A program made the translations under genes and the position numbers. Under the pieces are notes generated by a model. It did no database searches. It was not told where the DNA came from and worked only from the letters and a program-made list of their open reading frames with translations. This document shows, piece by piece, positions 6,919 through 34,301 of a stretch of DNA of 40,401 nt; positions within the stretch are counted from its first letter, which is position 1; each line of letters starts with the position of its first letter. Source of the stretch: Bacillus sp. ISL-41 (lineage in GTDB: Bacteria; Bacillota; Bacilli; Bacillales; Cytobacillaceae); assembly GCF_018613235.1 (NCBI RefSeq), contig NZ_JAGGQP010000009.1, forward strand, positions 1 to 40,401, read 5' to 3'.

Positions 6919-7004
6919 TTGACTCCCGGCTTATCATCGTAACCGCCTGTGAAAATAGCAGCTAGAAATGCAATACTTACGCCTATAATTAGGATTAGTT
7001 TCAT
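6909..7004 (-). CDS. Small membrane peptide, 31 aa
   Basis: This minus-strand ORF begins MKLILIIGVSIAFLAAIF, a single hydrophobic helix, and ends with a short charged tail (GGYDDKPGVNKK). A strong AAGGGAGG ribosome site lies 9 nt before the ATG, and the gene ends on a shared terminator, so it is probably real despite its size. I recognise no family. The helix-plus-polar-tail layout is common in small Bacillus membrane proteins. It has its own upstream region shared with the divergent prkA. Confidence 0.6.
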   Translation of the reverse strand: MKLILIIGVSIAFLAAIFTGGYDDKPGVNKK

Positions 7005-7208
7005 GTATGTAAGCCTCCCTTTTTATCGTTTTGTTCATATAGAAATCATTATATCCTATTATGCTGCAACTGTGAAGGATGGGCTTATTTTTTCCTTTAG
7101 GAGGTAAAAAAGGACAATCATCCTTGCAGAACGTTTACGCATGTTCAAATTGTTTGCTGCATAGAATTTATTAATCGTCTCTTGATAACGCTAGATGGGG
7201 AGGTCCAT

Positions 7209-9104: not shown

Positions 9105-9109
9105 ATTTT

Positions 9110-9141
9110 GAGGACCTGCAGATTGCGGGTCCTTTTAGTTT
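9110..9141 (+). terminator. Terminator after prkA
   Basis: AGGACCTGC paired with GCGGGTCCT, then TTTTAGTTT. Confidence 0.8.
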
Positions 9142-9186
9142 ATGAAATCCTGATAGCGGGAATAGTACAGGCAAGAGGTGATAAAC

Positions 9187-9369
9187 ATGAGTGAAAAAGA
9201 ATTGCCAAAAGACTATGTCCCTAAAAATAGTTCCATGGCACGCAATGAGGAAGAAATCGAAAATCTAGGTAAGCAAATGGAACACCGTCGCACAGGTGAA
9301 GTATTGAAAGAAGACTATGATAAAGTACCGGATCCAATCCAGTTTGATAAAGCGAATGAAAAGGAATAA
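9187..9369 (+). CDS. Small hydrophilic protein between prkA and yhbH
   Basis: A 60-aa, very charged, lysine- and glutamate-rich protein (MSEKELPKDYVPKNSSM...) with no hydrophobic helix and no cysteine. AAGAGGTG precedes the ATG at 9187 by 7 nt, and a strong terminator follows directly, which together support a real gene. I do not recognise the family. Its place between two sporulation genes suggests, but does not show, a spore-related role. It lacks the conserved motifs of alpha/beta small acid-soluble spore proteins. Confidence 0.65.
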   Translation: MSEKELPKDYVPKNSSMARNEEEIENLGKQMEHRRTGEVLKEDYDKVPDPIQFDKANEKE

Positions 9370-9402
9370 CCTTTGCTGATAACGCAAAGGTTATTTTTTT
9401 TA
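9367..9402 (+). terminator. Terminator after the small hydrophilic gene
   Basis: AACCTTTGC/GCAAAGGTT hairpin followed by an eight-T run. Confidence 0.92.
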
Positions 9403-9726
9403 TGGCCATGACACTCTGCATATTGCTGATTATAATCATTTGCCCAGAAGTTGATGCCTGCGTCCAGGACAGTAGTAAATGCTGTCTTGGAAAAGAACTT
9501 ATCAGGAAAAAGGACAATAATGCTCAAAAGGGTTTCAAGATAAAATGGGCTTGTCCATCCATAGGAGAAAAGGTTAATTGTCAAAATTATTTGTAAATTA
9601 TTTTGTCTTCCTGCATAAGATAGAGTAATTACAATTCCCACAAGGGAAAAGTCCATCGGGATATTGTATGAAGGTATGTTGAATTATGTTACTGTCAAAA
9701 TGAAAATTTCAAAGGAGGGGTTGAAA
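9403..9726. other. Intergenic region before yhbH, no convincing gene
   Basis: About 320 bp of AT-rich DNA. Open frames exist on both strands (plus 9402-9596, minus 9315-9656), but neither has a ribosome site. The minus frame encodes a partly hydrophobic peptide and could be a decayed membrane-protein gene. AAAGGAGGGG at 9712-9721 is the yhbH ribosome site. I see no confident sigma-factor promoter. Confidence 0.4.
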
Positions 9727-10896
9727 ATGACCGATGAAAGCAGTCACCAGTTTGTGATTTCCCAGGAAGATTGGTCCCTCCACCGCAAAGGACATGATGA
9801 CCAACAGCGCCATCAGGAAAAGGTGCAGGAAGCAATAAAGAGCAATCTGCCTGATTTGATCACCGAAGAGAATATTATCATGTCCAACGGCAGGGATGTC
9901 GTAAAGATTCCAATAAGGTCACTGGATGAGTACAAAATCCGTTATAACTATGATAAGAACAAACATGTCGGCCAGGGGAACGGCGACAGTAAAGTAGGTG
10001 ATGTCGTCGCGCGTGATGGCTCCGGGCAGCAGCAAGGTCCCGGAAAGGGGCAAGGCGCAGGAGACCAGGCCGGTGAAGATTATTACGAAGCAGAAGTATC
10101 AATGATGGAAATCGAAGAAGCGTTATTTAAAGAGCTGGAGCTTCCTAACCTCAAGAAGAAGGAAGAACAGGAGCACCTCGTTGAAAATATTGAATTCAAC
10201 GACATCAGGAAGACTGGCTTGATGGGCAATATTGATAAAAAGCGGACCATGATGTCAGCTTACAAGCGGAATGCGATGACAGGCAAACCATCGTTCCACC
10301 CAATCTACAAGGAAGATCTTAAATTCAAGACGTGGAATGAGGTCGTGAAGCCCGATTCAAAGGCTGTTGTTCTAGCCATGATGGATACGAGCGGCAGTAT
10401 GGGACTGTGGGAAAAATATATGGCGAGGAGCTTCTTCTTCTGGATGACACGCTTCCTTCGCTCCAAGTATGAAACAGTCGAAATCGAATTTATCGCTCAC
10501 CATACAGAAGCAAAGGTAGTCTCCGAGGAAGATTTTTTCTCAAAAGGAGAAAGCGGAGGTACCATTTGTTCATCCGCCTACCGGAAAGCATTGGAACTTA
10601 TAGACCTGAAATACAATCCAAGCAAGTTTAACATCTACCCATTCCATTTTTCAGATGGTGATAACCTGACCTCCGACAATGCCCGCTGTGTAAAATTAGT
10701 AGAAGAGCTGATGAAGGTCTCCAATATGTTTGGTTATGGAGAAGTCAATCAGTACAATCGCCACTCGACCCTAATGTCCGCGTATAAAAACATTAAAGAC
10801 GATAACTTCCGTTACTATATCCTCAAGCAGAAAGCTGATGTATTCCACGCGATGAAAAGTTTTTTCAAACAGGAAGAAAACAAGATGTATGCTTAA
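9727..10896 (+). CDS. yhbH: Sporulation protein YhbH (DUF444, VWA-like)
   Basis: The 389-aa DUF444 protein carries a von Willebrand A-like metal site (DTSGSMG from residue 220) and the preceding [10 protein letters not shown] and [14 protein letters not shown] segments. A low-complexity Gly/Gln-rich linker (residues ~95-120) separates a basic N-terminal region from the VWA domain. In B. subtilis yhbH is sporulation-expressed and required for normal spore development; DUF444 proteins occur with PrkA and SpoVR/YcgB in many bacteria. ATG 9727 follows AAAGGAGGGG by 6 nt; upstream in-frame codons to 9664 lack a ribosome site. It ends on a strong terminator. Confidence 0.95.
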
Positions 10897-10899
10897 TAA

Positions 10900-10937
10900 A
10901 AAATCGGCAGGATAGAGCTCCTGCCGATTTTTCTATT
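10900..10937. terminator. Bidirectional terminator between yhbH and the C39-like gene
   Basis: AAATCGGCAGG/CCTGCCGATTT stem with T-tracts on both strands. It lies just after yhbH and about 50 bp beyond the converging C39-like stop. Confidence 0.88.
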
Positions 10938-10987
10938 TCATCATCGTTGTTCTCACGCTGGATAGGAACTCCAATATTAACAATCTA

Positions 10988-11788
10988 TTATTTTTCAATT
11001 CCAATCGCCTGGCTGCCCATCTGGATCCAGGCATTCTCGAATGGTGTCCGTGGCACGGTCTTATAACCATCGCTGGCAAGCGGATCGTTTATGTAAATAG
11101 ACTCCTCGTCATAGCCGACAATCAAAACACTGTGTTCCTTGTAAGTAATCTTCACATTTCCGGTATTTGTCTCCCAAACGGTAAATTCCGATTCAGGAAG
11201 CGGAGCGAAGGTGGAATTGATGATGACCCAAACTGGCGATCCAGTATCGATCAGTTCGTAAACTGAATCAATGGATTGGCCAGTAATGTCCTTGATTTTT
11301 CCAGGGATATAATTCTCTGCAAGCTTTGCTACAGGACCATGGTAAACGCCATATCCCGATTTACTGAAAGTATAGATATCGCCTACGAAGCCATCATATG
11401 GATTGCTGCGAACATAATTTGCGTCGCGGAATGGTATTTTATGTATCTGCTCAGCCAAGGTCATTTTATCGGCTGCGATTCCCTCATACTGCAAAAGCAT
11501 TGTTAGGCTGGTTACCTCACAGCCTCGTTGTAATTCGGGGAGCTGACTGATGTGCGGAACCCCTTCAATCATCTCTCTCTTCTCTGTATTGAAGAAATCC
11601 TTGAGAAATTCTTTATCTTCAATGGACTTTGTTATGGAATAAGCTTCAGTTCGGTTGATTTTTGGAGCAACTGATGCTTGTGTTTCTGCCGTTGGATTTT
11701 CAATCGATCGTAAATTTTCCGCTCCCAGATAGGTCGCCAGGAAAATGCCTCCAATGGATAGTGTTCTAATAAGCAACTTTCTATTCAA
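10988..11788 (-). CDS. Exported C39-like cysteine peptidase (YvpB-like)
   Basis: The protein is 266 aa from the chosen TTG. An N-terminal signal or anchor (LLIRTLSIGGIFLATYLG) is followed by a ~60-residue linker and a papain-like C39_2 domain. The domain has GVPHISQLPELQRGCEVTSL with nucleophile Cys90, EHSVLIVGYD with His219, and INDP with Asp235, a complete Cys-His-Asp set. B. subtilis YvpB is similar. The TTG at 11788 follows TTAGGAG by 8 nt and sits 40 nt below a good promoter. The open frame to 12022 runs past that promoter and cannot all be translated from it. ATG 11806 is the alternative. The substrate is unknown. Confidence 0.82.
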   Translation of the reverse strand: MNRKLLIRTLSIGGIFLATYLGAENLRSIENPTAETQASVAPKINRTEAYSITKSIEDKEFLKDFFNTEKREMIEGVPHISQLPELQRGCEVTSLTMLLQYEGIAADKMTLAEQIHKIPFRDANYVRSNPYDGFVGDIYTFSKSGYGVYHGPVAKLAENYIPGKIKDITGQSIDSVYELIDTGSPVWVIINSTFAPLPESEFTVWETNTGNVKITYKEHSVLIVGYDEESIYINDPLASDGYKTVPRTPFENAWIQMGSQAIGIEK

Positions 11789-11834
11789 AATATCGTCTCC
11801 TAACATTTCTCCTTCAGGCTGGGCATCTCTTACA

Positions 11835-11863
11835 ATTTTAACCAAAGTTCGACAATGATTCAA
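11835..11863 (-). promoter_or_regulatory. Sigma-A promoter of the C39-like peptidase gene
   Basis: On the minus strand TTGAAT (11863-11858) and TAAAAT (11840-11835) lie 17 bp apart. The predicted start is about 40 nt before the TTG codon. Confidence 0.6.
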
Positions 11864-12083
11864 TAGACTAATAGAATGATATTGGAAACCGGCTGGTAAA
11901 AAGGTAACTATCATAGCGTAATTAAAATAAAAAGTCCTTAAGTTTGAGTTTTTGGGAAGAATATTGGGGAATTTAGTAGTTGAACCTGAAGTGAGCTCCA
12001 GTAAAAAAAGAATTTCTGACATTCATCTTTTTGAATCTAATCGGTAATACTATCTCTGTTATGAGTACAATCTTTTTAAAAAA

Positions 12084-12098
12084 AACACAATTTGTGTT
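12084..12098. promoter_or_regulatory. Palindromic candidate operator upstream of opuD
   Basis: AACACAA t TTGTGTT is a perfect 15-bp palindrome, followed by GGGTAT, which resembles a sigma-B -10, about 30 bp before the opuD ribosome site. No clear -35 was found. Betaine transporter genes in Bacillus are often osmotically and sigma-B regulated; the binding protein here is unknown. Confidence 0.4.
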
Positions 12099-12137
12099 AG
12101 GGTATTAAAGTGCAAAGTTGACGAAGGGAGTTTTTTG

Positions 12138-13652
12138 ATGAAAAAGGATTCATCTGTTTTTTTCATATCGACAGGAATTTTGTTATTAATGGTTCTTTTC
12201 GGTGTGTTTGTTCCAGATAAGCTTGAATCAGTTACAGCCAGTATCCAGGCATTCATTACTGATTCTTTTGGCTGGTATTATTTAATTCTTGTTTCTGCTA
12301 TTGTCATTGTTTGTCTGTATTTCTTAATCAGTCCTCTCGGCAAAATCAGACTTGGCAAGCAGGATGACCGCCCAGAGTTTACTACCCTGACTTGGTATGC
12401 GATGCTTTTTAGCGCCGGTATGGGGATCGGGCTGGTTTTCTGGGGTACTGCTGAACCGATAAGCCATTATATGGTCTCTACACCAACTGGAGTGGAGGCG
12501 GGGTCTGACCAGGCAATCCGTGATTCAATGAGATTCACGTTCTTCCACTGGGGTATCCATGCCTGGGCCATTTATGGAATTGTTGCATTAGTTCTTGCTT
12601 ATTTCAATTTCAGACATGGAAAGCCAGGATTGATTAGTGCTACCCTCAGCCCTATTTTAGGCGACAGGACGAATGGTGCAGTTGGAAAAGTAATTGACGT
12701 GATTTCGGTTGTCGCGACTGTAGTGGGTGTGGCAACAACTTTGGGATTTGGAGCTGTACAAATTAACGGTGGACTTTCTTACCTATTTGGAATACCTACT
12801 GGTTTCGTCACTCAATTGTTTATTGTCCTGATTGTAACAGTATTGTTCATGATCTCTGCATGGACAGGACTTGGAAAAGGTATCAAGATTTTAAGCAATG
12901 TAAACATGATACTAGCTGCGGTATTGCTCGTTGCGATGCTATTTTTAGGACCCACCCAATTTATCCTGAACCTTTTTACCAACACAATTGGTACATACCT
13001 TCAAAATTTGCCGGCAATGAGTTTCCGGATTGCGCCTTTAAATGAAGATGTCCGTTCGTGGATCAACGGCTGGACTATTTTCTACTGGGCATGGTGGATT
13101 GCCTGGGCGCCATTTGTAGGGATTTTTATAGCTCGAGTTTCTAAAGGCCGTACGATCAGAGAGTTTGTATTTGGTGTACTCCTTGTACCTTCTTTGATTG
13201 GCTTCCTATGGTTTTCTGCTTTTGGAGGTTCAGCGATCATGCTTGAGCACGAAGGGATTGCGAATATTTCAGAACTCGCGACCGAAGAAGCGCTCTTTGG
13301 CGTGTTTGCCAATTATCCATTAAGTTCTTTATTGTCCATCCTGGCAATGATCCTTATCGGTACATTCTTTATCACTTCAGCAGATTCAGGTACATTTGTT
13401 TTAGGGATGATGACCACCAATGGATCTCTGACACCAGGAAACAGGATTAAATTCACATGGGGAATCATGCTGGCGGCAATTTCTTTAGTATTGCTGTACT
13501 CTGGCGGACTGCAGGCATTGCAAAATACAATGATCGTAGCTGCATTGCCCTTCTCCATCATTATGGCATTAATGGGATTAAGTCTAATTAAAGCCCTGAA
13601 TCAAGAAGCAAAAGAACTCGGAATTGGAAAAATTCCTAAACGCAAGCCTTAA
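12138..13652 (+). CDS. opuD: Glycine betaine transporter, BCCT family (OpuD-like)
   Basis: Sodium-coupled uptake of glycine betaine or a related osmolyte through the membrane. The 504-aa protein has twelve hydrophobic helices. The BCCT marker lies near residues 315-345: WTIFYWAWWIAWAPFVG followed by FIARVSKGRTIREF, with the tryptophan-rich betaine-binding helix. FSAGMGIGLVFWGTAEP near residue 95 is the glycine-rich TM3 region. B. subtilis OpuD is the best-known match; choline or carnitine transport by a paralogue cannot be excluded. The ATG follows AAGGGAG, and the in-frame TTG just before is not needed. Single gene with its own terminator. Confidence 0.92.
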   Translation: MKKDSSVFFISTGILLLMVLFGVFVPDKLESVTASIQAFITDSFGWYYLILVSAIVIVCLYFLISPLGKIRLGKQDDRPEFTTLTWYAMLFSAGMGIGLVFWGTAEPISHYMVSTPTGVEAGSDQAIRDSMRFTFFHWGIHAWAIYGIVALVLAYFNFRHGKPGLISATLSPILGDRTNGAVGKVIDVISVVATVVGVATTLGFGAVQINGGLSYLFGIPTGFVTQLFIVLIVTVLFMISAWTGLGKGIKILSNVNMILAAVLLVAMLFLGPTQFILNLFTNTIGTYLQNLPAMSFRIAPLNEDVRSWINGWTIFYWAWWIAWAPFVGIFIARVSKGRTIREFVFGVLLVPSLIGFLWFSAFGGSAIMLEHEGIANISELATEEALFGVFANYPLSSLLSILAMILIGTFFITSADSGTFVLGMMTTNGSLTPGNRIKFTWGIMLAAISLVLLYSGGLQALQNTMIVAALPFSIIMALMGLSLIKALNQEAKELGIGKIPKRKP

Positions 13653-13661
13653 TAATTAGTG

Positions 13662-13697
13662 AGGAGTCATTCCAGTTTATGGGATGGCTCCTTTTTT
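13662..13697 (+). terminator. Terminator after opuD
   Basis: GGAGTCATTCC paired with GGGATGGCTCC (G-T pairs allowed), then TTTTTT. Confidence 0.88.
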
Positions 13698-13706
13698 AAT
13701 TTGGTC

Positions 13707-13735
13707 TTTACATAATTGGCGAGGCTGTTTATACT
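13707..13735 (+). promoter_or_regulatory. Sigma-A promoter of the RND exporter operon
   Basis: TTTACA (13707-13712), 17-bp spacer, TATACT (13730-13735). The transcription start falls inside the 20-bp palindrome at 13738-13757. Confidence 0.75.
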
Positions 13736-13737
13736 TT

Positions 13738-13757
13738 ATGTAAGTAATTACTTACAT
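13738..13757. promoter_or_regulatory. 20-bp perfect palindrome, probable TetR operator
   Basis: ATGTAAGTAA|TTACTTACAT is perfectly self-complementary and covers the +1 region of the exporter promoter, ideal for repression. The TetR-family gene closing this operon is the natural candidate to bind it. Half-site GTAAGTAA with a TTACTTAC partner is typical in size for TetR operators. Confidence 0.75.
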
Positions 13758-13782
13758 TCATTAGTTTCAGGGGGGAAGGAAG

Positions 13783-15282
13783 ATGCTGAAAATACTTGGG
13801 TCATGGATGTCAAAACACCCGGTAAAAATAGTTTTATTAACGATAATGGCTGTTGTGCTTTTAGCTGCAGGGGCAAGTAACGTCCAAATGGCTACGGGGA
13901 ATGAGACACTGGTAAGCACTGAATCAATGGTTTATAAAAGCAACCAGCAGCTTGAAGAAGAATTCGGGGGAGAATCGATCATCATCGTTTATGAAGCAAC
14001 TGATGATAAAGATGTGCTAACGGTTGACAGGCTGGAACATATGAAAGGTCTTGAAGCAATCCTTAATACACAAAAACAGGTTTATAGCGTCATGAGTCCT
14101 GTTGTTCTGGTAGAAGAAATATCGTCTAAGCAAGCTGAGAAATATAAAGAAGGAATAGAAGAAGTTTCGGATGGCCTGAAAGATATGGGTGGAAAATTAA
14201 TAGAGATTGGAGATCAGATGGAAGCCAATGCTTCTGCAGAAGGACAGCTTCCAAACATGGCTAGCCAAATGCCGGAACTTAATCAGGGAATAGATAACAT
14301 GATTCAAGGACAGGAGAAACTAAAGGCAGGAACGACAAATCTTGTTAGTGGCTATTCTCAGTTTGGAGCCCAGACAAGAGATGCAGGGATGAAACTGAAA
14401 GAATTGGCTTCAAAATACAACGCAAATGACCCGCAACAGAAACATCAAGCAGAACAGGTTAATAAAATGAGCATCCACTTGATCCAGCTTTCTGAAAAAA
14501 TGCTGCAGGGAGCTGAGAAATCTGAGGCTCTCCCAAATGTTCCAGATCAAACAATCAAGAGTTTAAAAGGAATGGAAAGTGGATTATCAAAACAGCAAGG
14601 ACAATTTGAAGACTTCCAGGCAGGAAAGGCAAAGCAGACTGAAGATTTAAAGCAGCTCAGCAAAGGTCTGAGTGAAATGGGCACAAACCTGGTCGAAATC
14701 AGTGAAAAATTAACCGCGATGAATGATTACTCCGATACATTGAAACCAGGATTGCCTGTAAAGCAGGAAACTCTGGAATACATTGTTTATGATAATAATG
14801 GCAAGAGGAAAGATATTTTTAATGAAGTCATTATAAACGATCATACCATGATCATGATTGTGAAATTTGGCGGAAATGTTTCGGATGACTCAAAAAGTGA
14901 CATTTCAAAAACGGTTAAGTCATATTTGAATGAAAATCAAATAGAGTCAACAGATACAATGGTTTCCGGGAAGCCAGTTTTGGATGATGCAATCCGCTCA
15001 TCCATGAAGGAAAGCATGAAGAAAATGATGATGCTATCTATATTGTTCATGGTCATCATTTTATTTTTCACCTTCAATGTAAGTTGGCGCTTACTTCCAT
15101 TAGGTATCATTTTAATAGCTGTCATTGGTACGGTTGGTTTGATGGGCTGGATTCAGATACCAATAACCATGGTCTCTATGGCCGTTTTCCCGATTCTTAT
15201 AGGTCTTGGGATTGATTACGCAATCCAGTTCCAAAACAGGTATTCAGAAGAAATGGCAGATGAGGAGGATGACCATGAATAA
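13783..15282 (+). CDS. RND/MMPL-type exporter, N-terminal part
   Basis: 499 aa. TM1 (IVLLTIMAVVLLAAGAS) is followed by a large outward domain with a long helical, glutamine-rich coiled-coil insertion (about residues 115-320), then TMs from about residue 405. The protein ends just after the conserved FPILIGLGIDYAIQFQNRYSEEM motif. In intact relatives, such as HAE3-type RND proteins and B. subtilis YdfJ, that motif is followed without a break by the sequence that begins the next gene. So this is half of a pump. It is the first gene of the TetR-controlled operon, with GGGGGGAAGGAAG before the ATG. Confidence 0.85.
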   Translation: MLKILGSWMSKHPVKIVLLTIMAVVLLAAGASNVQMATGNETLVSTESMVYKSNQQLEEEFGGESIIIVYEATDDKDVLTVDRLEHMKGLEAILNTQKQVYSVMSPVVLVEEISSKQAEKYKEGIEEVSDGLKDMGGKLIEIGDQMEANASAEGQLPNMASQMPELNQGIDNMIQGQEKLKAGTTNLVSGYSQFGAQTRDAGMKLKELASKYNANDPQQKHQAEQVNKMSIHLIQLSEKMLQGAEKSEALPNVPDQTIKSLKGMESGLSKQQGQFEDFQAGKAKQTEDLKQLSKGLSEMGTNLVEISEKLTAMNDYSDTLKPGLPVKQETLEYIVYDNNGKRKDIFNEVIINDHTMIMIVKFGGNVSDDSKSDISKTVKSYLNENQIESTDTMVSGKPVLDDAIRSSMKESMKKMMMLSILFMVIILFFTFNVSWRLLPLGIILIAVIGTVGLMGWIQIPITMVSMAVFPILIGLGIDYAIQFQNRYSEEMADEEDDHE

Positions 15283-26642: not shown

Positions 26643-26676
26643 AAAACCCCGGTGCACGAATTGTACCGGGGTTTAG
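26643..26676 (+). terminator. Terminator after the Gfo/Idh gene
   Basis: AAACCCCGGT gcacgaattgt ACCGGGGTTT; only a short, T-poor tail follows. On the minus strand the stem leads into TTTTTAGC, so it may work better for the srrF-like transcript coming from the other side. Confidence 0.7.
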
Positions 26677-26719
26677 GTTCCAGTTAAGAAAGTATAAACT
26701 TGTTTGTAGTTAGATTAAT

Positions 26720-26805
26720 GTCCAGCTCCAGCGGCTAGCAAGTTTTCCTCCTTGAGTATTTTGCGATAAGCATCAGCTTTGATCAGCTAGAGGCCGTGCG
26801 CTTTT
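26720..26805 (+). repeat. Interspersed Bacillaceae-type repeat at the end of the srr-like operon
   Basis: Starts GTCCAGCTCCAGCGGCTAG and ends GTGCGCTTTT, the same ends as the copies at 24-145 and 28721-28758. Its right end supplies the stop codon (26804-26806) of the last operon gene. Confidence 0.55.
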
Positions 26806-28063
26806 AAAAGGATGGTTTGCCGTCTGCAGATATTTGGATAGCGTTATTCAAATAGAAGGTATTGGCATATCCCAGATCAGCAATCTTATTTATAACACCA
26901 GCTGCCCTGGCGCCAGATGCACAGTGAATGACGATGACGGCATTCTTATCTTTCGGAAGCTGGCTTGCGATAGCGGCCGGGTCGGCCAGGATCACACTGT
27001 CAGGGATATTCAGAGATCCCTTGAGAACACCGACCTTGGTTTCATCCTTCGAACGGACGTCAAGGATGAAGGCCCCGGCATTGATTTTGTTCATGAATTC
27101 CTCTGGATTGATTCCGCGGTTAACCTGGCCTTCGGCTACGTCAAAGCTTCCGCCAGAATTGGCAGTGCCGAATGTTGGCAAGGATTGGGCAGACCAGTCA
27201 GGAAGTCCTCCCGAATAGACTTTGACATTCGAATAGCCATTTTTCAGAAGTTCTTCAGCGACAGCATGGCTTTTATGGCAGCCGAATCCGCCGCAATAGA
27301 CGATCACTTCAGTTGCTTTATCTGCAGGTGCTGTTCCCAGATACTTCTGCGCGAACAGTGTATCATCTGCAAAGACCGCATTGGGGATATGTGACTCGAA
27401 ATACACCTTATACGGCCTGGCGTCAAGGATGACGAAAGGCGGCTTATCATCCCTTGATACATTGGCATCCATGATCAGCCCCTTAATATACGGAGCGGTA
27501 ACAGCCAGGTAATTGCCTGCTTTTTTCCATTCTGGCAGTCCTTCCTGGTAAACTTTAATATTTTTATAGCCTAGCTTCATTGCTTTTTGAGCTGAACTGC
27601 TGCTCAATTCACAGGTGACTCCGCCGCAGTAAAATATAAGAAGCTTATTTTTATCTTCTGGAAGCAGGGAGGCAAATTGGTCAAACTGTGAATCTGGAAT
27701 ATTGATTGCTCCATTGATATGTCCTTCATGGAAAACGGCTTCAGGACGGGAATCGACGATGACAAAGTCCCATTCCGATGGATATTGCTCGTAAGCTTTC
27801 CTCGCGGCGCTTACCTCTCCGGCGGAAGCTTTTAATCTCATCATATATTCAGTTCCAACGTAAGATAGGTTCTCCTTCAGTGGCACGGATTTTTTTTCGG
27901 GTACAGCTTCATCGCCAACCTTATAGATTGAAAGGTCTGCCTTCTGGTTAAAATCTGCAGCTGCATTCGAGACCGTTTTGGCTGAATCTCCGCCAGTACC
28001 GCAACCGGCAATGGCTATTCCGACGGTAAATATCAAACCTGCCAGTATAGTTTTCTTTACCAT
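26804..28063 (-). CDS. srrF: Triple-rhodanese lipoprotein (SrrF-like)
   Basis: 419 aa. A lipoprotein signal (MVKKTILAGLIFTVGIAIAGC) puts lipidated Cys21 outside the membrane. Three rhodanese domains follow with active Cys146 (FYCGGVTC), Cys257 (VYCGGFGC) and Cys381 (IHCASGAR). The first two loops have a second Cys five residues on, unusual for rhodaneses. It probably accepts or relays sulfane sulfur or selenium near the reductase. It is the last operon gene, 4 nt after srrD, whose end holds its GGAG site. Size and place match SrrF of B. selenitireducens (annotated rhodanese, ~45 kDa, from memory). The longer frame to 28129 overlaps srrD and lacks a signal peptide at its start. Confidence 0.8.
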   Translation of the reverse strand: MVKKTILAGLIFTVGIAIAGCGTGGDSAKTVSNAAADFNQKADLSIYKVGDEAVPEKKSVPLKENLSYVGTEYMMRLKASAGEVSAARKAYEQYPSEWDFVIVDSRPEAVFHEGHINGAINIPDSQFDQFASLLPEDKNKLLIFYCGGVTCELSSSSAQKAMKLGYKNIKVYQEGLPEWKKAGNYLAVTAPYIKGLIMDANVSRDDKPPFVILDARPYKVYFESHIPNAVFADDTLFAQKYLGTAPADKATEVIVYCGGFGCHKSHAVAEELLKNGYSNVKVYSGGLPDWSAQSLPTFGTANSGGSFDVAEGQVNRGINPEEFMNKINAGAFILDVRSKDETKVGVLKGSLNIPDSVILADPAAIASQLPKDKNAVIVIHCASGARAAGVINKIADLGYANTFYLNNAIQISADGKPSF

Positions 28064-28067
28064 GAAA

Positions 28068-28700
28068 CTATTCACTCCTTTCTTCACCAAGTTGTTCACT
28101 CCTGTATCCAAGTGCAGAGGAGTGGACAAGCTGGTTCACTATTTGTGTAATAGATATATAGAACAAGCTTGTATCCGACTTTTTCAATTCCAGGATGAAA
28201 TCGTCAAGCCAATCGAAATGGTCCGAGATAAATGATTGAATCTGATCCGATGTCCCATGTTCGAGCAAGAAAGCGAGAAACTCAAGCAGTAGGGTTAAAT
28301 GGTCTGGCATTGCCCGATATTCTTCAGGAAACTCAAGCTTGAATTGCCGGAACAGGTACTGGATATGCAGTGCAGGGTCTCCGTAGAAAAATCCTGTCTG
28401 TCTTGCAAATGAAACAGCCGCAGTGGGATCATCGGTCCATTGTTTGTAGAGTGATTCAATCGGCGGTGCGAAAGGCTCGGAAGGACCTAGAAAACAATGA
28501 ATATAGGTTTGTTTCATATTTTCAATGGAAGAAAAAGCATTTTCATAGGTTTCTTCCGTTTTTACAAATGGTGTCAGCTCTTCCAAAGCTACTCCACTCT
28601 TCAAAGCTTGATAGAGTTCAGTGGTCGGCGGCTTATAAAATTCTGCCAGCAGCAAAAGCGCATTGGACAGTCGCCGCTTTTCTTCAGTCATGGTGAACAA
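28068..28700 (-). CDS. srrD: TorD/DmsD-family chaperone (SrrD-like)
   Basis: 210 aa, helical, cytoplasmic. It belongs to the TorD/NarJ family of chaperones that fold molybdoenzymes and hold them for Tat export; MKQTYIHCFLGPSEPFAPPIESLYKQW and MPDHLTLLLEFLAFLL are the family's typical segments (E..FAPP..S.Y, PDHL..LEFL). It probably serves the SrrA-like subunit, which has a Tat leader. TTG 28700 is chosen because AAAGGGG lies 8 nt upstream; ATG 28691 is 17 nt away. The gene is separated from srrC by 255 bp that hold two repeats. Confidence 0.85.
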   Translation of the reverse strand: MFTMTEEKRRLSNALLLLAEFYKPPTTELYQALKSGVALEELTPFVKTEETYENAFSSIENMKQTYIHCFLGPSEPFAPPIESLYKQWTDDPTAAVSFARQTGFFYGDPALHIQYLFRQFKLEFPEEYRAMPDHLTLLLEFLAFLLEHGTSDQIQSFISDHFDWLDDFILELKKSDTSLFYISITQIVNQLVHSSALGYRSEQLGEERSE

Positions 28701-28720
28701 GTGATCAGCCCCTTTCCGTT

Positions 28721-28758
28721 TGTCCAGCTCCAGCGCTGGACAAGGCGCTTGCGCTTTT
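28721..28758 (+). repeat. Short copy of the interspersed repeat between srrC and srrD
   Basis: TGTCCAGC tccagc GCTGGACA is a perfect hairpin and is followed by AAGGCGCTTGCGCTTTT. It has the end motifs of the longer copies with the middle deleted. It lies about 20 bp upstream of the srrD start. Confidence 0.6.
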
Positions 28759-28766
28759 CTTTTCTA

Positions 28767-28861
28767 GGCTCTTTTCTCAAACTTTGTTGCTATTGACTAC
28801 AAAATAGGAGTGAATGACTTATGTTTCTTCACAAAATTAAAGCTTATTATGAGAAAAGAGC
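28767..28861. repeat. Inverted-repeat element, copy B, inside the srr-like operon
   Basis: Arms GGCTCTTTTCTCA (28767-28779) and TGAGAAAAGAGC (28850-28861) flank about 70 bp with no gene. The arms match copy A at 25521-25628. It lies in the srrC-srrD gap. Confidence 0.6.
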
Positions 28862-28902
28862 TTGCACACTTAATACCGAACTACAAAATGGATTTTTATC
28901 AC

Positions 28903-28928
28903 GTTAAAATCGGCTTTAGGATTTTAAC
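28903..28928 (-). other. Hairpin after srrC without a T-run
   Basis: GTTAAAATC/GATTTTAAC is a 9-bp stem about 28 bp after the srrC stop. No T-tract follows on the minus strand, so it is more likely a stability or processing stem than a terminator. Confidence 0.45.
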
Positions 28929-28955
28929 AACAATCTTTACAAAAACAGCCTTTTT

Positions 28956-30104
28956 CTACGAGGTTACATCCCCGTGCCTTTTCAGCTCTGTTGCTGGTTT
29001 GTGGTTGAGGATTCGCTCCAATAATTCACGCTGCAGGTACAGTAATGCCATGATGCCGATTCCGCCAATTATCAGGGCCCATTCAGACCAGGTTATACTG
29101 AAAAGATTGAAGGCGGTTTTTTCAGCTGGATTTTTGACGACTTTCAATGGAGTAACCTGTCCGGCTATTACCATATTGAAACGCATGAAGAAAATTCCTG
29201 TCAGGGACAGCAGACCGGCAAGCCCTAGTTTCATGGATGTAAGCTTTTGGGCTGAAACGATTAGCACAAAAGGTATGCCAACGGCCAGCGATATTTCCAA
29301 TACCCAATAGTTAAAACTTAAAGGTCCTGTCAGCAAAGCGAGCAGTGATTCATATTTACCCGGCACCTGTCCGTAGAGCCCGACGAAAGTCTTGCCGATG
29401 TAGATGATGACCATGACTCCCATCATCGACAAGCTAAGTGTCCTGAGGAACTTAACTGTTTCAAGGTTCTCACTCTTTTTCTGTTTTTCATGCAGATAGG
29501 CGCTGATAGAAGCCATTGCGATTCCTGAAAATACGGAAGTCAGAATGAAGTAAAGCGGTGATATCGGGCCGTTCCAGTACGGACGTGCAATGATGAAACC
29601 AAACAGGAACCCAATGCAAACCAGAGCGACTAAGGCAGAAGCAGCGGTCATGATGGCAAAAGGCCTGATCAAAGACTGATTGCCGCGAACGACAAACACT
29701 GTTAAGGAAACCAGCAGCATTAAATAGATCCCGTATAATGGTGCCATCCACCAAATTGGCGAGGTAAAGTTAGGTGTCAGGAAATAATGGATGAAGTTAA
29801 GCGGATTGCCTAACTCCACCAATAAAATCGCAAAACCGCTGACCAGGGAAAAGATGGCAAACATCAGCAATAATTTGCCGATTGGGATAATGGCTTTTAC
29901 ATGGAAAATATATCCCAATGCTGCGACCAGCAGCAGTCCAGTGCTGATTCCGACAAAGTATTCATACCCGGCGATCAGGATTCCCCATGGAATCTTATTT
30001 GTGGTTCCCATGGCATGTTCACCATGGATAAAAATATTGGCTGCTCCCGCCAGGCCGAAGAGAATGAAGGCTGCTGACAGAATACTCCATTTATTGATTT
30101 TCAC
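28956..30104 (-). CDS. srrC: NrfD/PsrC membrane subunit (SrrC-like)
   Basis: 382 aa with about nine hydrophobic helices. It is a PsrC/NrfD-type quinol-oxidising anchor: GYEYFVGISTGLLLVAALGYIF, ELGNPLNFIHYFLTPNFTSPIWW and the late RFNMVIAGQ motif are typical. It should take electrons from menaquinol and pass them to the ferredoxin subunit. It begins at GTG 30104, which has GGAGGTG 6 nt upstream; the in-frame GTG at 30113 is part of that ribosome site. It follows srrB after 15 nt. Size agrees with the ~43-kDa SrrC recalled from B. selenitireducens. Confidence 0.88.
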   Translation of the reverse strand: MKINKWSILSAAFILFGLAGAANIFIHGEHAMGTTNKIPWGILIAGYEYFVGISTGLLLVAALGYIFHVKAIIPIGKLLLMFAIFSLVSGFAILLVELGNPLNFIHYFLTPNFTSPIWWMAPLYGIYLMLLVSLTVFVVRGNQSLIRPFAIMTAASALVALVCIGFLFGFIIARPYWNGPISPLYFILTSVFSGIAMASISAYLHEKQKKSENLETVKFLRTLSLSMMGVMVIIYIGKTFVGLYGQVPGKYESLLALLTGPLSFNYWVLEISLAVGIPFVLIVSAQKLTSMKLGLAGLLSLTGIFFMRFNMVIAGQVTPLKVVKNPAEKTAFNLFSITWSEWALIIGGIGIMALLYLQRELLERILNHKPATELKRHGDVTS

Positions 30105-30119
30105 GAGATTCACCTCCGG

Positions 30120-30659
30120 TTATTTTTTAACATAGAAGATGCTTGGCTTCGTGCCTTTAGCTTCAAGCAATTGATAGACTTCATGTTTTGCCAGCTCCAG
30201 ATTCAGCTGGCTGTTTGGATCCTCCAGGTCTCCGAACAGCCGGACCTCGTTCATGCAGGTCGCCGAGCAGGCAGGCTGTTCGCCTTTTTCAAGCATTTCA
30301 GGACACCACCTGCATTTTTCCGGCAGGCGTTTTTCATTCAGCTGTCTTGCTTCATAAGGGCAGGCAGCCATGCAATATTTGCAGCCGATACATTTGTCAG
30401 CGTCAATTTCGACGATTCCATCCTCGCGTTTGTAAGTTGCCTGGGTTGGGCAGACAGAAACACATGGAGCATTGTCGCAATGCTGGCACTGTACTGGTAA
30501 AATCTCCATTTTTACATTCGGATAAGTTCCAGTCTCCAAAAATTCAAGTCGGTTATAGGAAACATCCTTACTAAGCTGATTGTGCGATGCACAGGCAATG
30601 TTGCACGCGTTACAGCCCGTACAGCGTTCCGGAAATACCAAAAGGCCGTATTTTGCCAT
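30120..30659 (-). CDS. srrB: Four-cluster ferredoxin subunit (SrrB/PsrB-like)
   Basis: 179 aa with four cysteine groups for four [4Fe-4S] clusters: CTGCNACNIAC near the N-terminus, CQHCDNAPCVSVCP, CIGCKYCMAACP and CRWCPEMLEKGEQPACSATC. The family is PsrB/PhsB/DmsB, the electron-transfer subunit of CISM molybdoenzymes. It has no signal peptide and would be exported by the Tat pathway as a hitchhiker with the catalytic subunit. The ATG begins 2 nt beyond the srrA stop, and the AGGAGG ribosome site lies in the srrA end. Confidence 0.92.
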   Translation of the reverse strand: MAKYGLLVFPERCTGCNACNIACASHNQLSKDVSYNRLEFLETGTYPNVKMEILPVQCQHCDNAPCVSVCPTQATYKREDGIVEIDADKCIGCKYCMAACPYEARQLNEKRLPEKCRWCPEMLEKGEQPACSATCMNEVRLFGDLEDPNSQLNLELAKHEVYQLLEAKGTKPSIFYVKK

Positions 30660-30660
30660 C

Positions 30661-32871
30661 CTAGTTGCCCTCCTTTGCCACGGTCACGACAACCTCTTGG
30701 GCCATTGTCGAGCCTGATAGAGGGTCTACCATGATTGGGATAAAATCATTAAAGTTCACGCCGACTCCGTTCGCCGTCCTGTTCTTAGGTGAAAATCCGC
30801 CATATGTGGAAGGGAGCCATACAGCTTCCGGATGAAGAAACTCGGTTACTTTTACCTGCACCTTTTTCTTGGCGATCTTGGATTGGACTATCACTGTATC
30901 TCCGGTCTTGATGCCAAGCTTCCTGGCTCTTGAAGCATTGAGCCACATATAGGTTCCCTGATACTTCTCTGATAGCTTCATCAGTTGTTCGATATTTGTT
31001 GTCATGGCATGAGAATGCCATGGCTGCTTTCCATGAATCAAGCGGAATTCATGGTCTTTATTTGGATCCGGCTCAACAAGCGGAGGAACCCAGACAGGAA
31101 TTCCAAGTTTTCCGTCAATCTTGAACAGGTCAGCAGAAAATTGGATTTTACCGGTTAGCGTAGGCAGTGCCGGTTTGCCTTTTTTCATTGGGAATCCTGG
31201 TTTGACGGTTGCCGGGAATTCTAATGTCCCTGCTTTTTTCAGCTGGCCGAATGTAATGCCGAGCGGAGCAATTGCTGCTTCTACTTCTTCTTCAATTGTA
31301 AAAGGGTACAAATCCTTATGGCCCATTGCATCGGCAATTCCCTTCAGCATGTCAAGCGTGTTCCTTGTGTCATACATCGGGTTGACGACAGGCTGGCGAA
31401 GGGCAAGCTGGGGGCTATCATGCGAAATATGTCCGGATACAGCCTGAGGATGCTCCAATCTTTCCAGATAATAATGCTCAGGCAGTATATAATCAGCCGC
31501 ATAGTAGCTTGTTTCATTCCAGTCGATGTTAATGGAAACTACCAGCTCTGCATCCTTGATCTTTTTTTGTTCTTTAGGATCCGGTGCAGTCCTGAGAGGG
31601 TTATAGTTACAAATGAATACAGCTTTAGCAAGTCCTTGTTGTACAAGTTGTGGCGTAATATGGGCGATTCCCCTTGAAGGTTCGACTGTCCGGTACTTTC
31701 CAGTTACTCCAGCCCCGTCAATGCGAGCGCCTTTTTCAGGCATATTTTCGATAGCTGGCAAGTCGAGATGTCCCAGCTGGAGGCTGGCAGAAGGCATCAA
31801 GCCGCCCTTTTCATAGAAGTTGCCGACAAGTGCATTTAGGATGATTCCCATTTGGGCCGTTTGCGTACTGTTAACATAATGGGAATGCAGTCCATGCCAG
31901 CCTGGCTCAATAAAGGCCTGCGGTGCATGTTTAGCAAAGTCTCTGGCAATTTCCCTGATTTTATCGGCTTTTATTCCCGTAATTGGTTCTGCCCATTCAG
32001 GGGAGTATTCCTTGTTCATGCGTTTGAATTCGCTGAAGCCATCCACGAATTTTTGGACAAATGTCTTATTGTAGAGATTTTCTGAGATTAATACATTTGC
32101 CATCGCAAGCCTGAAAGCAAGGTCCGTTCCCGGCCTGATGGGAATCCATTCATCTGCAATCTTCGCAATCTCTGAATACCGTGGATCGATGACGATCAAT
32201 TTGGCACCCTTTTCCTTTGCATGGGTGATGTGGTTCATGCCATTCGGGATGATTCCGCCGGCGAAATTCCTTCCTTCAAAAATCATGTATTTAGCATTTT
32301 TATGGTCACCGTTAAGGGAGGTGCCGGTCATTTGCAGCCATGCATTTGTTTTAGCGTTGAAGCAAGTGGAATACTGTGTCGTGAAGTTAGGCGAGCCGAT
32401 GGTGTCAAACAAGCGGTCGACATATGATTTCCGATGTGTGCCGTGTTCCAGCCATAACACAGAATTACCGGTATACTGCTTAACGATGCTATCAAGCTTT
32501 TCGCCGATTTCCTTGAATGCCTGGTTCCAGCTGATTGGTTCGAATTTCCCTTCACCAACCCGCTTCATCGGGCCTGTCACCCTGTCTTTAGAGTAAAGAT
32601 AAGCTGCCATTCCATGTCCGCGGGCGCAGATCCTGCCGCTTGATTTCAAGTGGATGGGGTGACCTTCGACCTTCCAGACCCGGTCGTTTTTCACATGGGC
32701 GATGATTCCACAGTAACTTGTGCAGCCATGGCAGAAGGTCGGGATCTTCTTCACGCTTTCTTCGGTTGCAGCTTTCTTATAGTCGTTGAAGCTGAAATAG
32801 GCTGGAACCGAACCTGCTGCGACAACCGTTGCTGAAGCTTTTAAAAACGTACGGCGCGATAAATTTGTCAT
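30661..32871 (-). CDS. srrA: Molybdopterin catalytic subunit, selenite/polysulfide reductase type (SrrA-like)
   Basis: 736 aa, ~80 kDa. The Tat leader has SRRTFLK at residues 5-11. One [4Fe-4S] site uses Cys47, Cys50, Cys54 and Cys82 (CHGCTSYCG...CARG). The likely molybdenum ligand is Cys170 in YSTCFNAKT, as in PsrA/PhsA. The C-terminal domain (DHEFRLIHGKQPWHSHAMTTN..., then LWLNASRARKLGIKTGDTV-like) is the cofactor-closing fold. It reduces an oxidised sulfur or selenium compound outside the membrane. Operon order and size fit the B. selenitireducens selenite reductase, but polysulfide, thiosulfate or tetrathionate are possible. ATG 32871 is preceded by AAAGGAG. Confidence 0.88.
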   Translation of the reverse strand: MTNLSRRTFLKASATVVAAGSVPAYFSFNDYKKAATEESVKKIPTFCHGCTSYCGIIAHVKNDRVWKVEGHPIHLKSSGRICARGHGMAAYLYSKDRVTGPMKRVGEGKFEPISWNQAFKEIGEKLDSIVKQYTGNSVLWLEHGTHRKSYVDRLFDTIGSPNFTTQYSTCFNAKTNAWLQMTGTSLNGDHKNAKYMIFEGRNFAGGIIPNGMNHITHAKEKGAKLIVIDPRYSEIAKIADEWIPIRPGTDLAFRLAMANVLISENLYNKTFVQKFVDGFSEFKRMNKEYSPEWAEPITGIKADKIREIARDFAKHAPQAFIEPGWHGLHSHYVNSTQTAQMGIILNALVGNFYEKGGLMPSASLQLGHLDLPAIENMPEKGARIDGAGVTGKYRTVEPSRGIAHITPQLVQQGLAKAVFICNYNPLRTAPDPKEQKKIKDAELVVSINIDWNETSYYAADYILPEHYYLERLEHPQAVSGHISHDSPQLALRQPVVNPMYDTRNTLDMLKGIADAMGHKDLYPFTIEEEVEAAIAPLGITFGQLKKAGTLEFPATVKPGFPMKKGKPALPTLTGKIQFSADLFKIDGKLGIPVWVPPLVEPDPNKDHEFRLIHGKQPWHSHAMTTNIEQLMKLSEKYQGTYMWLNASRARKLGIKTGDTVIVQSKIAKKKVQVKVTEFLHPEAVWLPSTYGGFSPKNRTANGVGVNFNDFIPIMVDPLSGSTMAQEVVVTVAKEGN

Positions 32872-32900
32872 CACTTCATACTCCTTTCTCTCATAAGCTG

Positions 32901-33953
32901 TTAACCGCAGCTGGCGGCTCCAGTTTCTGTCTCGAGTTTTGTGTTCAGCTGTTTCACTGGATAATTCTTAACCTTAATGTTGGAAATCGGTTGGATACCA
33001 TTGATAACTTCATTAGATGTCCATACTCTCATGCCATCTTTCATGGCATAGGCTTCATATCCAAGCATATTGAGAATCCTTGCTGCTTTACTGGATATAG
33101 TGCCATCATGGTCGATGAGAACAATCTTTTTTTCCGGAGACAATTTCTTTAACTGTTCAAGTTCTGCAAGTGATTCAAAGGCGATATTGATCGACCCGGG
33201 TAAATGGCCTGCAGCATATTCTTTGGCTGGCCTTAGGTCAACCAGCAAGAGTCCATTCGACTTATTCTTGATGGAATCCTGAATATCCACGGGTTTCATG
33301 ATCGGTGGAATACCTGATTTCAGATAATCATCGGCACTTCCTAAGATAGCAGCTGTTTCATCAGTGTATTGCTTGCTTGCAGGAGCTGGGAGATCATATT
33401 TCCCGGATATTGTTTCTGTTGTTTCTACTGGGAAATCAAATGGTTTCTGAGGAAGCGGTGTCCCCAAATTCGCATCGCTAGTCCAGCCTCCCATTCCATT
33501 TACCATTGGAACTGCGTCATAGCCAAGCATATTCCACAGCGCTGCTGTCTGACTTGCAGTATGGCCGCTGTAGCAAATGACAAGGATCTTTTTGTCCTTT
33601 GGCAGATTAGCAATCTGGTTTGGGTTAGCTGTCATATTATAAGGAATATTGACAGAACCTTCGATATGTCCGGCAGCAAATGCAGCAGTATCGCGGACAT
33701 CGACAATGAAGTATGACGGGTCGTAATTCAAGATCATTTTTTCAAAAATTTCTTCAGCAGCAAAAGACTCTGCTGGTTTTTTCAGATAAGCATCAGCAGC
33801 TTGCTGTACGACTGAAAAAACATTGAGCTGCTCACTTTGTCCATTTACTTTTGGCTGGGGTGCAGTTGAACTTTCCTGAGTACCACAGCCACCAGTGAAA
33901 GCCAGCATTGTGCCGGCCAATAAAATTAATGTTTTTTTTCCAAACAGCTTCAA
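32901..33953 (-). CDS. srrE: Double-rhodanese lipoprotein (SrrE-like)
   Basis: 350 aa, ~38 kDa. Signal peptide and lipobox LAFTGGC give lipidated Cys23. Domain 1 (about residues 65-160) has an active-site Cys127 in VICYSGHTASQ. In domain 2 (about 220-325) the matching position is Asp281 (LIDHDGTISSKAA), so that domain is not catalytic by the usual mechanism. The protein ends AASCG with an extra Cys two residues from the end. First gene of the operon; TTG 33953 follows GAGGTG by 5 nt. Place and size match the SrrE rhodanese recalled from B. selenitireducens. Confidence 0.82.
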   Translation of the reverse strand: MKLFGKKTLILLAGTMLAFTGGCGTQESSTAPQPKVNGQSEQLNVFSVVQQAADAYLKKPAESFAAEEIFEKMILNYDPSYFIVDVRDTAAFAAGHIEGSVNIPYNMTANPNQIANLPKDKKILVICYSGHTASQTAALWNMLGYDAVPMVNGMGGWTSDANLGTPLPQKPFDFPVETTETISGKYDLPAPASKQYTDETAAILGSADDYLKSGIPPIMKPVDIQDSIKNKSNGLLLVDLRPAKEYAAGHLPGSINIAFESLAELEQLKKLSPEKKIVLIDHDGTISSKAARILNMLGYEAYAMKDGMRVWTSNEVINGIQPISNIKVKNYPVKQLNTKLETETGAASCG

Positions 33954-34301
33954 AGCTCTCACCTCTCTGCTGGCGGGATCTGCCGCCAAAATATTGATTT
34001 GGAATAGAAAAAAACTGAAAGAATGTACACCTCCATCTACGTTGATGCCTATACTCCTATGGGTTTTATGTGTTGCAAAAAAAAATTAAGCGCTTAAGTT
34101 ATTTTTACCATCTGGGGTAAGTCTATTGCTGTGGAAATTCAGTTACTATTTTCGAGTATGAAAGAAGAAGTGAGGGGATTCACCTATTAATATTTTGAAT
34201 TTTTCGCACATTTTACACTTAAAACACAATCATGAATTTTGCGTGGAGAATTCTCGATGAAAGAAAAAAGTCCGCAACTGAAAGTGCGGACTTGAGACTT
34301 A
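33954..34301. promoter_or_regulatory. Control region of the srr-like operon
   Basis: From the gene outward (minus strand): a GGCGG/CCGCC hairpin at 33972-33987 in the leader; a weak promoter TTGCAA (34078-34073) with TATAGG (34053-34048), 19-bp spacer; a 12-bp perfect palindrome TTAAGCGCTTAA at 34086-34097; and an inverted repeat TTACC-N6-GGTAA at 34105-34120. The last two lie just upstream of the -35 and are candidate activator or anaerobic-regulator sites. No Fnr box (TGTGA-N6-TCACA) was found. From about 34123 to 34263 I see nothing clear. Confidence 0.4.
34264..34296 (-). terminator. Terminator after the purine permease gene
   Basis: Minus-strand AAGTCCGCA ... TGCGGACTT stem followed by TTTTTTC, just past the permease stop. 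Confidence 0.92.

Follow-up and report, generated by a model that had tools for sequence, protein, structure and literature searches.

The srr operon of Bacillus sp. ISL-41

The window analysed here is a stretch of 40,401 nucleotides from Bacillus sp. ISL-41 (contig NZ_JAGGQP010000009.1) and constitutes one whole contig (C1) of a genome that totals 4.62 Mb over 57 contigs; the host presumably belongs to the genus Mesobacillus. It carries a six-gene operon that, from alignments, gene order and trees, is orthologous to the srr operon of Bacillus selenitireducens MLS10 and probably encodes a membrane-bound respiratory selenite reductase working outside the cytoplasmic membrane. The six open reading frames (ORFs) occupy 26804-33953 on the minus strand in the order srrE-A-B-C-D-F and have no internal stop (ORF list and Pfam). 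An initial annotation of the sequence had proposed six such genes in this order, and all of them proved to be intact, with Pfam domains that agree:

srrE, 32901..33953, minus strand: exported rhodanese protein with an active domain (CYSGHTA), a degenerate domain without cysteine (Cys) and a C-terminal ...AASCG (ORF, two Pfam Rhodanese domains, motifs)
srrA, 30661..32874, minus strand: molybdopterin catalytic subunit exported by twin-arginine translocation (Tat), with one 4Fe-4S site and Cys171 as presumed molybdenum (Mo) ligand (ORF, Pfam, tree)
srrB, 30120..30659, minus strand: four [4Fe-4S] electron-transfer subunit with 16 Cys (ORF, Pfam 4Fe-4S dicluster type)
srrC, 28956..30113, minus strand: NrfD-type membrane anchor and presumed quinol site (ORF, Pfam PF03916)
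srrD, 28068..28691, minus strand: TorD/DmsD-type maturation chaperone (ORF, Pfam PF02613, Nitrate_red_del)
srrF, 26804..28063, minus strand: three-domain rhodanese lipoprotein (YCGGVTC, YCGGFGC, HCASGAR) (ORF, Pfam, motifs)

SrrA combines a Tat signal with the Molybdop_Fe4S4, Molybdopterin and Molydop_binding domains of Pfam, and its Cys171 aligns with residue 173, likewise a Cys, of the Thermus thermophilus enzyme 2vpw; we take it to be the Mo ligand. Start codons were chosen from the sequence, namely ATG for srrD (28691) and srrF (28063) and, for srrE, a likely TTG (33953) preceded by a purine-rich stretch. The lipobox of SrrF is good (IAGC), that of SrrE non-canonical and weak (AFTGGC). Predicted masses of SrrA to SrrF are 81.9, 20.2, 42.4, 24.0, 37.8 and 44.9 kDa, and the G+C content of the operon is 45.6%, against 42.8% in the remaining window outside the RNA cluster. 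The gap between srrC and srrD measures 264 bp, compared with about 30-170 bp (by match ends) in five other operons of the genus, and contains a 15-mer (28721-28735) that recurs identically beside srrF (26719-26733), possibly as a dispersed repeat element.

Orthologous operons in MLS10 and SF-1

The MLS10 genome (G613) was fixed by means of two published polymerase chain reaction primers for Bsel_2816 (PMC3899277, excerpt), the gene-specific parts of which match the two ends of the homologous gene without a mismatch. Its locus (L091) is collinear with the window operon from E through A, B, C and D to F. Identities in BLASTP are 33% for E, 61% for A, 65% for B, 35% for C, 36% for D and 48% for F, so that the alignment to SrrA-F of MLS10 proposed by the initial annotation gave 33-65% identity with all six proteins orthologous. 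Computed in the same way, the MLS10 masses of A to F are 82.2, 19.9, 43.1, 24.2, 38.4 and 45.6 kDa, each within 1 kDa of the window's. The gene order and product sizes that the initial annotation gave for MLS10 were right. The subunit sizes quoted for MLS10 (A 80, B 17, C 43, D 24, E 38 and F 45 kDa; PMC12481199, excerpt) fit the computed masses except for B, quoted at 17 kDa and computed at about 20 kDa for both organisms.

The two systems share gene order, strand, domains, sizes, the Tat motif and a single catalytic clade, as well as 16 Cys in SrrB, six in SrrF and the Cys in the tail of SrrE. They differ in that the window host has a second enzyme of the PsrA/PhsA type, whereas the MLS10 genome has no second one at E <= 1e-60. 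The closest relative of the MLS10 locus lies in genome G612, which we presume to be the tellurite-respiring Bacillus beveridgei MLTeJB. Since the six-gene order is kept in the loci of many genera as well as in MLS10, it is not due to chance, and by every sequence-level comparison that we made the window operon is a genuine srr operon.

A complete srr operon is also present in Mesobacillus selenatarsenatis SF-1, at 6919-13868 of locus L067 (NZ_BASE01000131.1 17805-36012), with an SrrA 96% identical to that of the window. SF-1 reduces selenate to selenite and further to elemental selenium (Se0), and the second of these steps was unelucidated in 2015 (PMC4319585). The srr operon of SF-1 is a candidate for its selenite-to-Se0 step.

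Phylogeny of the catalytic subunit

Trees were built from 71 proteins, including 28 Srr rows, and with bootstrapping from a subset of 37, in which 18 of the 28 Srr rows and 15 of the 34 from paralogues were represented. The near-duplicate genus copies L038-L040 were excluded from the rows, and Bacillus sp. ISL-45 (L069/L041), in which srrA and srrC are frameshifted, from the trees and the 28-locus count, its E and F proteins being kept in the 20-row motif sets. Seventeen further paralogue loci lie outside the trees (L016, L017, L043-L046, L055, L063, L081, L083, L090, L119, L122, L124, L125, L128 and L132), and L133 entered the larger one as a fragment owing to an in-frame stop. Apparent frameshifts occur in srrA and srrC of ISL-45 (L069 8001-11912) and in srrF of G214 (L096 13543-14804), and could reflect assembly error or decay.

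All Srr rows, those of MLS10 and the window included, form one clade (Shimodaira-Hasegawa-like approximate likelihood ratio test 100 in the 71-row tree; 100/100 in the 37-row tree), recovered in 100% of the 200 bootstrap trees of the smaller set. Its sister clade, in the rooting used, comprises Bacillota paralogues, the host's own copy among them (support 90 and 97/94, respectively). The catalytic subunit does not join E. coli PhsA, Thermus 2vpw or the host's TtrA/SrdA-type protein, a possibility that the initial annotation had named as contrary to its proposal; PhsA, 2vpw and ArrA fall outside the Srr clade and the single TtrA/SrdA-type row (71-row tree only) branches apart from it. The deep order of these branches is unsure given the long branches of PhsA, 2vpw and TtrA/SrdA; no Wolinella PsrA is among the rows. 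The Tat motif RRxF[LI]K is present in 28/28 SrrA proteins, and 12 positions separate Srr from the Bacilli paralogues, for example K175 near the presumed Mo-ligand Cys. As markers of substrate we discarded such residues, because K175 and M182 (2 of the 12) and A317 also occur in E. coli PhsA, and likewise Trp326, at the position of Thermus Arg332, which is common to paralogues and replaced by Tyr in L154.

Srr resembles the PsrABC/PhsABC enzymes of Wolinella, Salmonella and Thermus (2vpw) in its catalytic fold, the Cys at the Mo-ligand position and its Fe-S and membrane subunits, and the best NCBIfam match of SrrA is PhsA (NF012032, 430 bits). It could accordingly be asked whether Srr is a thiosulfate reductase of the PhsA type, the more so as E. 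coli PhsA carries the Srr residue at the three positions just mentioned. We consider this very improbable: the NF012032 cut-off of 694 bits is not reached, E. coli PhsA stands outside the Srr clade on a long branch, and the Srr anchor is an NrfD protein rather than the PhsC-type cytochrome b of the E. coli phs operon. The latter also differs from Srr loci in that no rhodanese gene is annotated in the 8.2 kb surrounding E. coli phsABC. The MLS10 enzyme is reportedly inactive on selenate, arsenate and thiosulfate.

The host contains further enzymes of this superfamily. A paralogue in the same enzyme family (G000:C12) is encoded by a D-A-B-C operon, with a catalytic subunit 42% identical to SrrA; like its Bacilli kin it differs from Srr in having D before A and in belonging to another clade. 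An ArrA-like protein (L137, G000:C23) scores 1127 bits against NF041714, and the ArrA-like proteins of SF-1 (two, L138 and L141) and MLS10 (one, presumed ArrA, 1068 bits) are likewise below the cut-off of 1600, which may be too high for Bacilli. A TtrA/SrdA-type operon encoding Fe-S, NrfD and catalytic proteins lies at L144 2856-8142 (G000:C33); its catalytic gene is found in 21/21 genomes of the genus and has tetrathionate or selenate as candidate substrate. The SrdBCA selenate reductase of SF-1 and TtrA are, like Srr, chalcogen-oxyanion reductases of the same superfamily, on a different branch (one TtrA/SrdA-type row) and in a different operon. SF-1 has a further TtrA/SrdA-type protein at 40% identity, so that more than one of its proteins may be SrdA. 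Two host proteins resembling formate dehydrogenase (L003, L006), with stop-containing stretches, were excluded from the molybdoenzyme comparison.

Related clades reduce oxyanions of arsenic and selenium (PMC10100899, excerpt), genome G612 may belong to a tellurite respirer, and Srr might in principle act on another chalcogen or metalloid oxyanion, such as tellurite, tetrathionate or arsenate, or be a broad detoxifying reductase. This too appears improbable. SrrA falls far short of the TtrA model NF011567 (59.7 bits; cut-off 1750, unreached also by the host's own TtrA/SrdA-type protein at 486.5 bits) and of the ArrA model (152 bits), and the host has the separate ArrA-like and TtrA/SrdA-like enzymes just described.

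Rhodanese partners and conserved cysteines

A co-directional rhodanese gene stands close to srrA in 28/28 Srr-clade loci, directly upstream of it in 26 (the exceptions being L100 and L101). A three-domain rhodanese gene follows downstream in 23 of the 28; it is split into two ORFs in L150 and L153 and replaced by a two-domain gene in L154 and L155, and L149 stops at a contig edge. By comparison, only 2/34 paralogue loci have a rhodanese gene within 7 kb, one on the opposite strand (L180) and one encoding a single-domain lipoprotein beside the reductase (L198). Near the host paralogue none was detected in the 5.6 kb preceding or the 7 kb following it. These searches used a hidden Markov model built from Srr rhodaneses, which may miss distant ones; in the paralogue count L177, with two paralogues, was counted once, the second A gene of L073 was left uncounted and the downstream part of L191 amounted to 1.4 kb. 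The contrast of 28/28 with 2/34 indicates that the rhodanese pair goes with the Srr clade.

L198 (7230-10832, genome G950) is a distant PsrA-like operon, and its SrrE-like single-domain rhodanese lipoprotein may represent a halfway architecture. Selenocysteine in its catalytic gene was considered and rejected, as the single in-frame TGA lies within an insert, away from the Mo-ligand Cys; no Rfam selenocysteine element was matched for this locus at E <= 1.

The cysteines of both rhodaneses are strongly conserved. From the lipobox on, SrrF has exactly six in 20/20 proteins examined, namely the lipobox Cys and those of YCGGxxC, YCGGFxC and HCA[STA]G[AV]R, although G214 shifts frame where the last motif ends. 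SrrE keeps its first-domain Cys in 20/20 proteins and has lost the second-domain Cys in 19/20 (the E row of L100 and L101 is not upstream of srrA). A new detail from these alignments is a conserved Cys at the C-terminus of SrrE (AASCG and variants; window 32904-32920), usually the penultimate residue, which occurs in 22/27 proteins: 17/18 of one set (ISL-45 included) and 5/9 of the upstream genes of L147-L155. L147 and L148 have a single rhodanese domain and retain the tail Cys. Across an eight-sequence alignment of SrrE just three Cys are invariant, those of the lipobox, the active site and the tail.

Such partners also suit another view of the enzyme, the main rival to a selenite reductase, in which Srr would be a polysulfide or elemental sulfur (S0) reductase, SrrE and SrrF would deliver sulfane sulfur to SrrA and selenite reduction would be a side reaction. 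In Wolinella, Sud delivers sulfane sulfur to Psr. The constancy of the rhodanese partners and the retention of the SrrF active-site motifs in 20/20 proteins are in keeping with such a role. Among solved structures the closest is that of the Thermus enzyme, which belongs to the same family, and the sequence is compatible with polysulfide specificity. The caveat of the initial annotation that the substrate cannot be read from sequence stands, selenite and polysulfide/S0 being indistinguishable in this way. Nonetheless the host already has its 42% paralogue, of a kind listed in 20/21 genomes of the genus, and for this reason a second enzyme suggests a different substrate. Moreover, the MLS10 enzyme is reportedly active on selenite. 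Both MLS10 and SF-1 are carriers that reduce selenite, and Srr of MLS10 is called a selenite reductase in a review (PMC12481199, excerpt). We therefore regard a primary role in sulfur reduction as rather unlikely.

Distribution and insertion site

Taking matches of 51% identity or more as the range of the Srr clade, we found it in 6/199 genomes of the order, 6/398 of the class and 10/398 of the phylum, the host being included each time. Within the genus, 6/21 genomes have a match in this range and 20/21 one of about 40% (the paralogue), and in the family of S. halotolerans 7/35 genomes have a match at E <= 1e-60. A scan of named genomes, from the result of which MLS10 was absent, returned seven Srr-clade loci and one distant protein. 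The named carriers are SF-1, Bacillus sp. ISL-45, a metagenome-assembled genome (MAG) of Tepidibacillus decaturensis, Salipaludibacillus sp. CUR1, S. daqingensis, Salisediminibacterium halotolerans and the MAG UBA6259. In UBA6259 the srr operon is followed downstream by a further psrA-psrB, of the paralogue type (L073 15206-17912). No relative was seen in a scan of viral contigs and no close Srr copy on plasmids, where 1278 of 72,556 records matched, all with a best place below 60% identity (28.9-29.7% in the 20 matches listed).

In all six carriers of the genus the operon lies between the same oxidoreductase and permease genes, which are 7.3-7.7 kb apart. In eight non-carriers these genes are separated by 40-65 bp with one hairpin inside, so that the empty site holds a hairpin of the CCCCGG...CCGGGG kind and little else. 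In the other 7 of the 21 genomes the pair is not adjacent, some of them having the genes on separate contigs or lacking them at the thresholds used. The neighbours of the operon encode a DegV protein, a Gfo/Idh/MocA oxidoreductase and a purine permease with a purine riboswitch. The ordinary housekeeping surroundings described in the initial annotation are borne out, and within the genus the operon behaves as an accessory cassette with a single location. A single gain in one subclade was rejected, as a one-gene tree (TtrA/SrdA-type gene, 12/21 genomes) requires at least three changes of presence. The scattered presence suggests that the operon has been lost from, or transferred to, a fixed site. 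The cassette is bounded and preceded by the following features:

26647..26671, strand not given: hairpin CCCCGG...CCGGGG separating srrF from the convergent oxidoreductase gene; left cassette boundary
33954..34267, minus strand: leader and putative promoter region preceding srrE, parts of which are conserved among the six Mesobacillus operons (alignment)
34268..34293, minus strand: terminator-like hairpin 3' of the purine permease gene, right cassette boundary

The conserved leader blocks 5' of srrE fall at 34080-34240 in the six operons and include the palindrome TAAGCGCTTA, a possible regulator site that differs by one base in ISL-45. A scan for sigma-70-like sites listed none on the minus strand of the leader, and in the 10.6 kb scanned they were not enriched (12 found against 18.0 expected).

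Proposed function of the Srr system

A function as a selenite reductase is likely, with selenite as the natural substrate by analogy with MLS10. From the families of the proteins, which would also predict quinol oxidation and a location outside the membrane, the electron path may be outlined as follows. SrrC would take electrons from menaquinol and SrrB would relay them through four [4Fe-4S] clusters to SrrA, at whose Cys-liganded Mo-bis(pyranopterin guanine dinucleotide) site selenite would be reduced to elemental selenium; SrrD would chaperone SrrA ahead of Tat export. The exported SrrE and SrrF may then take over the selenium in its zero-valent state (or as mixed Se/S chains), bind it to Cys as perselenide and so remove it from the enzyme. 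The collinear MLS10 locus with its matching subunit sizes, the lack of a second match in MLS10 at E <= 1e-60, the single Srr clade, the 28/28 against 2/34 rhodaneses and the carrier SF-1 all argue for a selenite reductase, as does the ability of a rhodanese to bind selenium in a stable 1:1 perselenide (PMC9369223, excerpt). Tepidibacillus dominated selenite enrichments (PMC12016495, excerpt), and a T. decaturensis MAG is among our carriers. That rhodanese genes beside srrA may mark selenite reducers is stated in PMC8528874 (excerpt), with reference to the 2019 MLS10 paper.

Several points weigh against this assignment. The E, C and D proteins of the window are no more than 33-36% identical to those of MLS10, and as partners the rhodaneses would suit sulfane sulfur no less well than selenium. 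The original assignment in MLS10 reportedly came from proteomics and an active band in a gel rather than from a mutant, and two or three carriers of known phenotype tie the operon to selenite respiration. In one study selenite also accumulated in reactors where the dominant organism was a Mesobacillus, with SrrA and SrrB matches in its MAG, and an SrrA match was reported in a MAG of Anaerosolibacter, which is not thought to use selenite (PMC12016495, excerpt). Such matches could, however, represent paralogues of the kind present in this genus at 41-42% identity. SrrA was matched there in MAGs of three genera, Mesobacillus, Tepidibacillus and Anaerosolibacter, and SrrB in those of Mesobacillus and Tepidibacillus, but SrrC in no MAG (PMC12016495, excerpt), which the low conservation of SrrC (35%) could explain.

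A bolder form of this scheme, which we offer as a speculation and consider unlikely, is that Srr, more than a PsrABC acting on another substrate, depends on an obligate chalcogen relay formed by two proteins, and that the relay, not the Mo subunit alone, defines selenite respiration in Bacillota. The tail Cys of SrrE would enter the SrrA pocket like the GGCGG arm of SoxY, collect Se0 as perselenide and pass it to the five active-site Cys of SrrF, which would nucleate extracellular Se0. The only Cys of the window SrrE are that of the presumed lipid anchor, one in the rhodanese domain and the C-terminal one, and 5 of the 27 SrrE proteins, against such a relay, have no tail Cys. SoxY carries sulfur on the Cys of its C-terminal GGCGG (PMC6067878, excerpt), a rhodanese can bind selenium as perselenide (PMC9369223, excerpt), and a rhodanese gene, extH, is part of the ext cluster of Geobacter, which also encodes ExtI, a porin with an implied role in the reduction of selenite and tellurite (PMC5877670, excerpt). 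These cases are analogies to SrrE and SrrF, not tests.

According to a 2025 review, a respiratory selenite reductase has been identified so far in MLS10 only (PMC12481199, excerpt). No complete srr operon outside MLS10 is described in excerpts of PMC7331816, PMC10100899, PMC12016495, PMC11944866, PMC12481199, PMC8528874 and PMC12388498 or in PMC4319585; the founding J Bacteriol 2019 paper may mention srr-like loci in other organisms. Our analysis places the same operon in the bioremediation strain SF-1 and in other Bacillota. The rhodanese counts test the tie of these proteins to the clade, the idea of a marker for selenite reducers being itself earlier (PMC8528874, excerpt), and the layout of the cysteines offers a concrete handle on how Se0 may leave the enzyme. 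The presence or absence of the operon at a single site in Mesobacillus provides natural comparisons among close relatives, and a gene for selenite respiration in Gram-positive bacteria is now directly testable.

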